Part shown: positions 2,157-5,422 of the stretch, one piece after another
Position numbering within the stretch: the stretch's first letter is position 1
Layout of the letters: each line of letters starts with the position of its first letter
Made by a program: the position numbers and the translations under genes
The notes under the pieces: model-generated
What the model was told of the DNA's origin: nothing
The model's input: only the letters and a program-made list of their open reading frames with translations
Database searches by the model: none
From: Longimicrobiales bacterium
GTDB lineage: Bacteria; Gemmatimonadota; Gemmatimonadetes; Longimicrobiales; RSA9
Assembly (NCBI GenBank): GCA_035764935.1
Contig: DASTYK010000051.1
Span: forward strand, 1 to 56,026
Reading direction: 5' to 3'
Length of the DNA stretch: 56,026 bases

Positions 2157-2804
2157 ATGACCGAAGATCTACTGCGCCGTGCGGGCGCACGGCTGGACGA
2201 GAACGGCGACGAGGAGGCGGAGAAGCAGGAGTCGCCGGAGCGCGCCAACCCCGCAATGCTGACGGAAACCGTGCGCGACCGGCTGTTCAAGTCGCGCACG
2301 CTGATCATCAGTGGCGAGATCAACCAGAAGCTGGCCGCGCAGGTGATGGGTCAGCTCCTCGCGATGTCGGCGGAGTCGGAGGACCCGATCACGATCTTCG
2401 TGAACTCGCAGGGAGGCCACGTCGAGTCGGGTGACACGATCCACGACATGATCCGCTTCATCACTGCGCCGGTTCGCATGGTCGGCACCGGCTGGGTTGC
2501 GAGCGCTGGTGCCCTGATCTATGTCGCCGTGCCGAAGGAGCAGCGCTTTTCGCTGCCGAATACGCGTTACCTGCTGCATCAGCCGTGGGGCGGTGCGCGC
2601 GGCAGTGCCGCGGACATCGAGATCGAAGCGCGCGAGATCGTGAAGATGCGCGAGAGGCTGAACCGCGTATTCGCGGAGCAGACGGGGCAGCCGCTGGAGA
2701 AGATCGTGGACGACACGCGCCGCAACTTCTGGCTCTCGGCAGAAGCGGCAGTCGATTACGGCCTGGTCGGCACGATCATCCGCAGCCGTTCCGAGTTGAA
2801 GTAA
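2157..2804 (+). CDS. clpP: ClpP-family serine peptidase paralogue with Ser-His-Asn triad
   Basis: A 215-residue ClpP-fold peptidase, normally the proteolytic core of ATP-dependent Clp proteases. An acidic N-terminal extension of about 33 residues precedes the core. The nucleophile is Ser116 (VASAGA) and the catalytic His is His141 (LLHQPWGG), with the 25-residue spacing of E. coli ClpP. Counting the usual 49 residues on from the His lands on Asn190 (DTRRNFW) where active ClpP has Asp. Listeria ClpP1 is known to have the same Asp-to-Asn change. The substrate loop reads [10 protein letters not shown] instead of NSPGGSVTAG, and GWVASAGA replaces the usual GQAASMGA. A good AGGAG lies just before the ATG. 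No clpX or clpA is nearby. It follows hutU closely and ends at a strong terminator. It is probably a paralogue rather than the housekeeping ClpP. Confidence 0.85.
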
Positions 2805-2862: not shown

Positions 2863-4242
2863 ATGTCGACGATTCTCGTTCCCGAGCTGCTCTGGCAGCA
2901 TGGCCGCTTCGTGCGTGACCGCGCCCTCGTGGTGGAGGGTGACCGCATAGCGGCGATCGTTCCGGCGGAGCGGGCCGGGCATGAGGCGCGCCGGCTGCCG
3001 CGACGGGCACTGATGCCGGGTTTCGTCAATGCGCACTCGCACGCGTTCCAGCGGCTGATCCGTGGTCGCACGCAATGGCGGCCCGCCAATGACCGAAGAG
3101 CGGACTTCTGGAGCTGGCGCGAGGAGATGTACCGCGCCGCACTGCTGCTCTCGCCCGAGCAGGTGGAGGCGGTCTCCGCGTTCTGTTTCCTGGAGATGCT
3201 CAAGGCCGGTTACACGTCCGTGGGCGAGTTCCACTACCTGCACAACGACAGGAGTGGGGCGCCGTACGACGATCCCGCCGAGCTCGCCCGGCGCATCCTG
3301 GCCGCCGCGCGCAGTGTCGGCATCCGCATCGCGCTGCTGCACGTGGCCTACGCGACGAGCGGCATCGGCCAGCCGCTGCGCCCCGAGCAGCGCCGCTTCG
3401 CCACGCCGACGCTGGACGGGTTCCTCCGTGTGGTGGACGCATTGCGCGAGTCGGCCGCAGGCGACCCGCTGGTCAGTGTCGGCGTTGCGCCGCACAGCAT
3501 CCGCGCGGTGCCGCGCGAGTGGCTGCCGGCCGTCCATGCGTATGCGGAGCAGTACGGCCTGCCGTTGCACATGCACGTCAGCGAGCAGCCCGCGGAAGTC
3601 GATGCCGCGCTCGCGGCGTTCGGCCTGCGCCCTGTGGAGCTGCTGGAACAGGACGGGCTGCTCGACGACCGTTTCACCGCGGTCCACGCGACGCACCTGG
3701 CGGCCCACGAGGTGAACCTGCTCGGCAACACCGCCGTAACGGTGTGCGCCTGCCCTACCACTGAACGGGATCTCGGCGACGGGTTCCTGCAGGCAGACAA
3801 CCTTCTGACCGCGGGCGCGCGCATTGCAATCGGAACGGACAGCCAGAGCATCATCGACCCGTTCGAGGAAGTGCGCCTGATCGAATACCACGAGCGGCTG
3901 CAGCGCCTGCGGCGGATCGTGCTGCTGCCGCCGGGCGCGGACGGCGCCGCGGACCCCGGCTCCCTGCTGCTCGACATCGGCACGCGCGCGGGTGCGAAGG
4001 CATTGCGCCTCGATGCGGGCCGGCTCGAAGCGGGCGCACTCGCGGATTTCATTGCCGTGGACCTGGACCATATCGCTCTCGCGGGCTGCGACGCGGATTC
4101 CCTCGCGGCGCACCTCACGCTGGGCGGGCGCGCAGAATGCGTGAGTGACGTGTGGACCGGCGGCATACAGCGGGTCGCCGATCGCAGCCATGCGGACGAA
4201 GAGCGGCTGCGCGCTGCATTCGGGGTCGCGGTGAGGTCGTGA
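2863..4242 (+). CDS. hutF: Formimidoylglutamate deiminase
   Basis: A 459-residue amidohydrolase-superfamily enzyme. HutF converts N-formimidoyl-L-glutamate to N-formyl-L-glutamate and ammonia, the fourth step in the five-step histidine pathway. Metal-binding signatures appear in order: NAHSHAFQR (HxH), HMHVSEQ (mid-protein His), HATHLAAHE and GTDSQS (Asp). GEFHYLHND near residue 120 is typical of HutF and separates it from related amidohydrolases such as chlorohydrolases. Length is normal. Translation starts at the ATG at 2863, 20 bases after the terminator hairpin, so it may have its own promoter, though I see no convincing boxes. Together with hutU it indicates the deiminase route rather than the direct HutG formiminohydrolase route. 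Confidence 0.9.
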   Translation: MSTILVPELLWQHGRFVRDRALVVEGDRIAAIVPAERAGHEARRLPRRALMPGFVNAHSHAFQRLIRGRTQWRPANDRRADFWSWREEMYRAALLLSPEQVEAVSAFCFLEMLKAGYTSVGEFHYLHNDRSGAPYDDPAELARRILAAARSVGIRIALLHVAYATSGIGQPLRPEQRRFATPTLDGFLRVVDALRESAAGDPLVSVGVAPHSIRAVPREWLPAVHAYAEQYGLPLHMHVSEQPAEVDAALAAFGLRPVELLEQDGLLDDRFTAVHATHLAAHEVNLLGNTAVTVCACPTTERDLGDGFLQADNLLTAGARIAIGTDSQSIIDPFEEVRLIEYHERLQRLRRIVLLPPGADGAADPGSLLLDIGTRAGAKALRLDAGRLEAGALADFIAVDLDHIALAGCDADSLAAHLTLGGRAECVSDVWTGGIQRVADRSHADEERLRAAFGVAVRS

Positions 4243-4285
4243 TGAGATGCGTTGCAGCCGCTCCCCACCGCCGGGTGGTCGACTG

Positions 4286-5422
4286 ATGGCGAGCATCCAG
4301 CTCGGCCGTATCGCCGGCTTCCGCTTCGGCGTCGACTACTCCTGGTTCATCATCTTCTTCCTGATCCTCTGGTCGTTCACGGCAGGCGTGTTCCCGGCCC
4401 AGGTGCCCGGCCTGGGTGATGGCGTATACATCGCGATGGGCGTGATCGGCACGCTGCTCTTCTTCGCCTCACTCGTGCTGCACGAGCTGGCGCATGCCGT
4501 GATCGCACGCAGGCGCGGCGTCGAAGTCGAGAGCATCACGCTGTTCCTGCTGGGCGGTGTCGCCCGTACGCGCGGCGAGGCGAGCACCCCGGGCGACGAG
4601 TTCCGGATCGCCGCGGTGGGCCCGCTGATGAGCCTGCTGATCGGAACGGTGCTGTTCGGCCTCGCGCTGGTTTCTCGCGGCGCCGGCTGGCACCCCGCCG
4701 TCGTCGTCGTGCTGCAGTACATCGCAGTGCTCAACTTCGTGCTGGCGGTGTTCAACCTGCTGCCGGGGTTCCCGCTCGACGGCGGCCGCGTTCTGCGCGC
4801 GGCGGTGTGGCACTTCACGGGTGATGCGACCAGGGCGACGCGCGTGGCGGCGATGTCCGGGCGTGCGATGGCGTGGATCCTGTTCGCGCTCGGCGCGTTC
4901 GAGATCTTCGGCGGTGCACTGCTGGGCGGTGTGTGGCTGATCCTGATCGGCTGGTTCATCCGCAATGCCGCGGACGCCGGCTACCAGCAGCACATGCTGC
5001 GCTCGACGCTGGGCAGTGTGCTCGCCCGCGACACCATGACACCGGCGCCACGCACGATCGAGTCGCACCTCACCCTGGAGCGGCTGGTGGGCGAGTACTT
5101 CATGCACACGCGTTACCTCTCGTTCCCGGTCGTTGACGGCGAGCGCCCGCTGGGCATCATCACCCTGAACCAGGTGAAGGCGGTGCCGCGTGACGACTGG
5201 CCGCACCGCACGGTTGCGGATACGATGACGAAACTCGACGAGGGCATCGTCGTGTCCGGAACGGACTCGCTGCTCACGGTGATGCAGCGGTTGCAGGCGT
5301 CGCCTGTCAGGCGGCTTCTCGTGGTCGAGCGCGACACGCTAGCCGGATACATCACCGCGCACGACGTCGCCGGCTGGATCGAGAAGAGCGGCATTCTCAA
5401 GGGGGAGCGGAAGCGTGGCTGA
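4286..5422 (+). CDS. Site-2 protease family (M50) membrane metalloprotease with CBS domains
   Basis: The 378-residue product is a multi-pass membrane metallopeptidase of the S2P/M50 family, which cleaves substrates within membranes, often releasing regulators. The zinc motif HELAH is at residues 66-70 and the third ligand lies in NLLPGFPLDGGR (Asp165). Several hydrophobic segments fill residues 15-235, and two CBS-like repeats (about 255-310 and 320-375) form the cytoplasmic tail, a common M50 architecture thought to sense nucleotides. The frame is open from 4247, but the ATG at 4286 gives MASIQLGRIAGFRFGVD, the normal start of this subgroup. The Nudix gene overlaps its 3' end by 8 bases, implying co-translation. 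Confidence 0.85.
   Translation: MASIQLGRIAGFRFGVDYSWFIIFFLILWSFTAGVFPAQVPGLGDGVYIAMGVIGTLLFFASLVLHELAHAVIARRRGVEVESITLFLLGGVARTRGEASTPGDEFRIAAVGPLMSLLIGTVLFGLALVSRGAGWHPAVVVVLQYIAVLNFVLAVFNLLPGFPLDGGRVLRAAVWHFTGDATRATRVAAMSGRAMAWILFALGAFEIFGGALLGGVWLILIGWFIRNAADAGYQQHMLRSTLGSVLARDTMTPAPRTIESHLTLERLVGEYFMHTRYLSFPVVDGERPLGIITLNQVKAVPRDDWPHRTVADTMTKLDEGIVVSGTDSLLTVMQRLQASPVRRLLVVERDTLAGYITAHDVAGWIEKSGILKGERKRG

Follow-up and report, generated by a model that had tools for sequence, protein, structure and literature searches.

A Ser-His-Asn ClpP paralogue of the Listeria ClpP1 clade in a Longimicrobiales bacterium, and Asn-triad ClpP in other phyla

Introduction

ClpP1 of Listeria monocytogenes carries a Ser-His-Asn catalytic triad, in which the Asn selects an inactive heptamer, the protein being active in complex with ClpP2; its Asp mutant is tetradecameric, yet inactive in proteolysis with ClpX, and the authors describe this activation phenomenon as apparently special to Listeria (PMC5361862). 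The same paper describes ClpP1 as without a chaperone-binding motif, and ClpX as seemingly not binding via the ClpP1 ring (PMC5361862). A cross-linked structure has ClpX on the ClpP2 ring, one legend in the same review allowing either ring (PMC9035409). In an open-licence literature search for the Asn variant and its spread, the only cases to appear were Listeria ClpP1 and a general remark that some bacteria possess this rare Ser-His-Asn triad (PMC12900304). The substitution has so far been viewed as a rare, Listeria-type change linked to partner dependence.

ClpP rings are tied by an equatorial acid-Arg pair beside the catalytic Asp, which also helps to align the triad (PMC9035409); Glu170-Arg171-Asp172 is one example of this oligomerization sensor (PMC9823225). 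Mycobacterium tuberculosis ClpP1 is part of an obligate ClpP1P2 heterocomplex, and for Pseudomonas aeruginosa ClpP2 the title of structure entry 9ndj names a ClpP1/ClpP2 heterocomplex bound to ClpX. The paralogue described here is of a kind already known from Listeria and Pseudomonas; the variation lies in its sensor.

The paralogue gene and its neighbours

The window, by which we mean the whole stretch of 56,026 nucleotides that was analysed, is the entire contig C51 (DASTYK010000051.1) of Longimicrobiales assembly GCA_035764935.1 (3.83 Mb, 96% complete). The following features lie around the paralogue:

379 to 2130, + strand: hutU, urocanate hydratase, upstream neighbour (TIGR01228, 956 bits)
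2148 to 2152, + strand: AGGAG, 4 bases before the paralogue's ATG and likely its ribosome-binding site (read from the sequence)
2157 to 2804, + strand: coding sequence of the Asn-triad ClpP paralogue (open reading frame, profile and structure-sequence matches)
2157 to 2258, + strand: N-terminal tail, codons 1-34, acidic and predicted to be disordered (charge count; pLDDT)
2863 to 4242, + strand: hutF, formimidoylglutamate deiminase, downstream neighbour (open reading frame and profile)

The reading frame begins with ATG and encodes a product of 215 amino acids (P0001), which matches the whole Pfam CLP_protease domain (PF00574) with 208 bits (E 1.3e-61; cut-off 20.2) and scores 257.3 against NCBIfam NF009205 (PRK12553; curated cut-off 228). 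Canonical ClpP also passes the latter profile (277.4), which therefore does not separate the paralogue clade; a class-wide NF009205 search was dropped as a separator because both kinds matched, and 30 loci from it were used solely as canonical rows.

hutU is co-directional and ends 26 bases upstream, as the earlier note on this DNA had it, and its true start probably lies some 28 codons later. hutF begins 58 bases 3′ of the paralogue. An M50-type metalloprotease with CBS domains is encoded directly 3′ of hutF (4247-5422), and a relative of it also occurs near the paralogue in locus L261 of genome G006. hutU adjoins the paralogue in the window genome, in G006 and in G009, where a gene whose opening letters resemble glutamate formiminotransferase, and then hutF, lie past the paralogue. 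It was found beside the paralogue in no other fetched family locus, within flanks of 1.5-6 kb, some of them cut by contig ends. Neighbouring frames were picked mechanically, and antisense frames of high-GC DNA displaced real genes such as hutF, so that this survey shows only weakly that the neighbourhood is unconserved. We regard the hutU link as a local arrangement, perhaps with shared transcription.

The tail (residues 1-34) holds ten D/E and five K/R. In the AlphaFold model, which is a monomer with a mean pLDDT of 84.3, the tail and part of the handle are low, the block means running from 44 to 65 across residues 1-40. A variable tail stands in the paralogues where canonical ClpP has its N-terminal region, and a net negative one is present in 40 of 47 Gemmatimonadota paralogue rows, 48 of 52 other paralogue rows and 24 of 64 canonical rows.

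Catalytic triad and oxyanion loop

2406 to 2417, + strand: oxyanion loop S-Q-G-G, codons 84-87 (S/C-P-G-G in canonical rows; alignment)
2502 to 2504, + strand: catalytic Ser116 codon (alignment column)
2577 to 2579, + strand: catalytic His141 codon (alignment column)
2724 to 2726, + strand: Asn190 codon, replacing the catalytic Asp (alignment column)

The alignment comprises 119 paralogue-family rows, some of which are the same gene fetched twice, and 65 canonical rows. Ser and His occupy the first two catalytic columns in every row of both kinds (119/119 and 65/65). At the third, the family has Asn in 112 rows and Asp in seven, and the canonical rows have Asp in 61 and Asn in four. This confirms the Ser116/His141/Asn190 triad, with spacings of 25 and 49 residues, that had been counted out from the single sequence; the reading of Asn rather than Asp also holds in a gap-free alignment to Listeria ClpP1 (4jcq), where Asn meets Asn.

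Part of the sampling came from a contig scan with six peptide patterns, DDTRRNFW among them, which favours Asn members and from which the best 80 of at least 538 matches were taken. Searches without this bias, by whole protein in the closest genomes and by Pfam, gave Asn in 24 of 26 and in 14 of 14 paralogues, respectively. The Asp-bearing rows are L028 and L029 from Gemmatimonadota, L085, L106, L114 and L125 from Solimonas and Sinimarinibacterium, and L115. Once identical cores are removed, Asn is found in 90 of 97 distinct paralogue rows and Asp in seven; Asn is thus fixed in most of the clade, which points to selection and not decay, and the conservation of Ser, His and Asn across such distances likewise speaks against decay. 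At least six changes between Asn and Asp, the fewest needed, are required on the tree.

The Gln of the NSQGG loop is present in 83 of the 119 family rows. We rejected the idea that the SQGG loop tracks Asn: Phenylobacterium and Acetobacteraceae combine SPGG with Asn, and Solimonas combines SQGG with Asp. The acidic tail and the altered loop, which the earlier note had added to this protein's divergence, are both present, but they are common traits of the clade and not a divergence of its own.

Clade and structural relatives

A single branch separates the paralogues, Listeria ClpP1 included, from canonical ClpP with support of 100/100 (100 in a second tree), in a tree built without the triad, sensor and oxyanion columns. 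P. aeruginosa ClpP2 forms a long branch, and its position inside the paralogue clade is unsure. Among solved chains, those of Listeria ClpP1 (4jcq, 6sfx, 4jcr) are nearest in sequence, followed by a chain of 9ndj and 7m1l, both named P. aeruginosa ClpP2 in the titles of the structure library. On sequence grounds, we place the window protein in the Listeria ClpP1/Pseudomonas ClpP2 clade. The kinship with Listeria ClpP1 proposed earlier is borne out by 61% identity over 179 columns as well as by the clade.

The AlphaFold monomer superposes on 4jcr with Z 29.4 (rmsd 1.2 over 171 residues), on 7m1l with Z 29.1 (2.5 over 174) and on 4jcq with Z 28.6 (1.4 over 168), and the best structural neighbours include the heterocomplex entries 4ryf, 6sfx and 9ndj. 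Canonical ClpPs follow closely, at a Z of about 27, so that structure alone barely separates the two kinds; the tree does.

With Listeria ClpP1 (4jcq, 4jcr, 4ryf, 6sfx) the window protein shares Ser-His-Asn, the NSQGGHVE loop and the motif GTGWVASAG. It differs in having Arg (RRN) where the Listeria sensor has Asp (DRN), S-A-A in place of Q-S-T at the handle motif, and a longer acidic tail. P. aeruginosa ClpP2 (7m1l), of the same clade and 59% identical, differs in its triad Asp, its sensor Glu and its SPGG loop. The QXT motif of M. tuberculosis ClpP1, which was compared by motif alone, is reported to be SAA, as in the window protein (PMC9035409).

Paralogues of Sorangium cellulosum and Rhodothermales (L069, L073, L076) nest within the Gemmatimonadota group (100/98), which suggests horizontal transfer of these genes; L069 is from Sorangium cellulosum and L076 from Roseithermus sacchariphilus. 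In a wider sample of the window's class the paralogue occurs in 44 of 296 genomes (E 1e-55 or better) and is hence an accessory gene there.

Oligomerization sensor, handle and docking pocket

2487 to 2489, + strand: Thr111 codon, at what we take to be the E. coli Met92 position of the unfoldase-docking pocket (alignment)
2604 to 2612, + strand: handle QXT motif, codons 150-152, here S-A-A (alignment; PMC9035409)
2718 to 2720, + strand: Arg188 codon, the sensor's acidic position, basic here (alignment)
2721 to 2723, + strand: Arg189 codon, the sensor's invariant Arg (alignment, 119/119 and 65/65)

All 65 canonical rows have the sensor acid (D/E), as do 35 of the 47 paralogues that are not in the Gemmatimonadota set; none of the 50 in that set has it, one of these 50 (L054) being from a bin with the label Terrabacteria. 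The residues found there instead are Arg (25), His (18), Leu (2), Asn (2), Gly (2) and Thr (1), and these non-acidic rows form a clade with support of 100/98. Three changes of the sensor acid are needed in total on the tree; as we read it, one of them sits at the base of the Gemmatimonadota group. The acid-Arg sensor of the Listeria ClpP1 type is not kept in the window protein (R188-R189), and we take this change as marking the Gemmatimonadota branch as a variant of that type, without treating it as defining. With Arg188 in place of an acid, a homo-tetradecamer would be disfavoured and pairing with canonical ClpP favoured.

The Gln of the QXT motif is absent from all 50 paralogues of the Gemmatimonadota set; this drift does not discriminate, because the motif reads TAA in the genome's canonical ClpP (L001). 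The pocket column holding Thr111, presumably that of Met92 in the hydrophobic unfoldase pocket of E. coli ClpP, has Thr in 95 and Ser in two of the 97 paralogues and I/V/M/L in 65 of 65 canonical rows. The window protein thus departs from canonical housekeeping ClpP in Asn190, in Thr111 and in having hutU as its neighbour.

Canonical ClpP and the unfoldases

PF00574 has three matches in the genome. One is the paralogue in the window and another, on contig C177, a canonical clpP; the third, a weak match on C106 (L003), belongs to an NfeD-type membrane protein. Flanked by tig and clpX, the canonical gene encodes Ser-His-Asp; the clpX-linked copy that the earlier note had proposed to look for is therefore there, and the genome holds both kinds. 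Compared with the paralogue, this canonical ClpP (L001, 1459-2100) carries two additional residues following HQP (HQPAAAQGIGGTAADIE). In the family to which the window genome belongs, the pattern of acidic sensor and Asp is found in 12 of 12 genomes and its Asn version in none of the 12.

Canonical ClpP accompanies the paralogue in 26 of 26 Gemmatimonadota genomes and in 36 of 37 genomes reached via named loci, one of these 36 having it as a fragment truncated at a contig end. G317, G543 and G574 hold the paralogue, but no canonical gene was found in them, perhaps because these bins are incomplete. Such co-occurrence is weak evidence, since canonical ClpP is near universal. A UVR-bearing ClpC-like ATPase of the genome carries ALGF, the kind of loop by which ClpC docks into ClpP. 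The genome's ClpX carries RIGF, and a ClpX loop of this kind docks into ClpP (PMC9035409).

Asn-triad ClpP as a probable housekeeping protease

All four canonical rows with Asn come from Calditrichaeota, Calditrichia or KSB1 bins. PF00574 was therefore searched at E 1e-40 in 59 genomes of the phylum to which one of them, the Calditrichaeota bin G324, belongs and which also takes in three KSB1 bins, and each match was read (L189-L239, together with L127, L134 and L136). A ClpP match at E 1e-40 or better was obtained in 58 of the 59. A ClpP linked to tig, clpX or both was read in 55 genomes: 50 have Asn, four have Asp (G558, G569, G579, G584) and one has Ser (G537, L239). An Asn ClpP is the sole match in 38 of the 58 genomes, and in 11 of the 58 both ClpPs are Asn-bearing. 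G559 has an Asn ClpP and an unlinked Asp ClpP, G586 has only an unlinked Asp ClpP, and G543 and G574 have the paralogue alone.

Sixteen of these canonical Asn ClpPs were aligned; they keep Ser, His and the acidic sensor, and 13 of the 16 have Met at the pocket position. They share the Ser-His-Asn triad with the window protein but differ from it in belonging to the canonical clade, in their tig/clpX linkage, in the acidic sensor and, usually, in the lack of a second ClpP. It is unlikely that in all 38 genomes a second ClpP lies beyond E 1e-40 or was lost from incomplete bins. To judge from these genomes, a housekeeping ClpP can have Asn as its third triad residue with no detectable second ClpP; that such proteins are active proteases is suggested by their conservation and by the tig-clpP-clpX locus. 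The suggestion that Asn is by itself sufficient reason for a needed partner finds no support in view of the 38 genomes with a lone, tig/clpX-linked Asn ClpP. The open-licence literature search gave no account of an Asn triad as the normal state of the housekeeping ClpP in a phylum.

In the phylum of G316 the Asn canonical pattern hit two of 247 genomes; one hit lies in a frame that does not appear ClpP-like and the other in no frame longer than 60 amino acids. The pattern recovers 49 of the 58 fetched Calditrichaeota/KSB1 loci and misses canonical forms with other letters around the triad.

Proposed role and alternatives

Within the Listeria ClpP1 clade, the paralogue is probably of the partner type, supplying a ring for canonical ClpP. 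A heptamer of the paralogue would stack on a heptamer of the ClpP encoded at tig-clpP-clpX; the canonical ring would provide the docking pockets for ClpX, through its RIGF loop, and for the ClpC-like unfoldase, through its ALGF loop, and the paralogue ring would close the chamber. Unfoldases are expected, though not with full certainty, to dock on the canonical ring. The Ser-His-Asn sites would work, or work well, only while the canonical ring holds the handle and the sensor loop in their active state, and activity would thereby be coupled to assembly. Two paralogue rings, each with Arg188-Arg189, would lack the usual inter-ring acid-Arg bridge, for which the canonical ring would supply Asp or Glu, and the coupling would be stricter in the Gemmatimonadota-type clade than in Listeria. 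The triad, the clade, the changes at sensor and pocket and the presence of canonical ClpP, ClpX and the ClpC-like protein are observed, and from them we infer the ring stacking, the docking side and the activity of the paralogue. Stronger hints of a partner than Asn itself are the lost sensor acid, Thr at the presumed Met92 position and the heterocomplexes of solved relatives, both solved members of the clade occurring in such complexes.

The paralogue might instead be an independent peptidase, a homo-tetradecamer with neither unfoldase nor partner ring, in which Asn is an ordinary substitute for Asp. Although the lone Asn ClpPs of Calditrichaeota/KSB1 indicate that such triads can serve alone, and Ser and His are invariant in the family, we think this unlikely: those lone ClpPs are of canonical type, with the acidic sensor and mostly the Met pocket, both of which the paralogue clade is without, and Listeria ClpP1 alone is an inactive heptamer (PMC5361862). 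The same invariance weighs the other way for a catalytically idle regulatory ring that only alters the assembly, docking or gating of canonical ClpP. Plastid ClpR is an idle ring component of this sort, and the changed triad and an acidic tail presumably placed at one mouth of the barrel would suit such a role. Ser116 and His141 are nevertheless kept in every family row, seven rows carry Asp, and Listeria ClpP1 is active within its complex (PMC5361862), all of which makes an idle ring quite improbable. That the protein is a histidine-pathway protease, co-transcribed with hutU and hutF and degrading either Hut proteins or a regulator, draws on the 26-base gap, on hutF downstream and on the hutU-clpP pairs of G009 and G006, with hutF further along in G009. 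Neighbours vary by lineage, however, and the link was seen in no other fetched locus within the 1.5-6 kb flanks, so we consider it very improbable.

Returning to the partner ring, we tentatively extend it to a broader view, which we hold with rather less than even confidence: Ser-His-Asn may be a stable, selected triad that has arisen or reverted several times and serves alone as the housekeeping ClpP of one phylum, and in Gemmatimonadota its combination with loss or reversal of the sensor acid may prevent self-pairing and hard-wire a barrel of canonical and paralogue rings. Many phyla have Asn as a fixed residue, and the sole ClpP found in one phylum normally carries it, so that natural pairs allow direct tests of what the third triad residue of ClpP does. 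From the change of sensor charge follows a simple rule, itself open to test, on which rings may pair with each other. A natural test case is found in the Gemmatimonadota paralogues L028 and L029 (genomes G075 and G032), which have Arg-Arg-Asp with an SPGG loop; their sensor Arg occurs together with a triad Asp, which indicates that sensor loss and Asn are separable.
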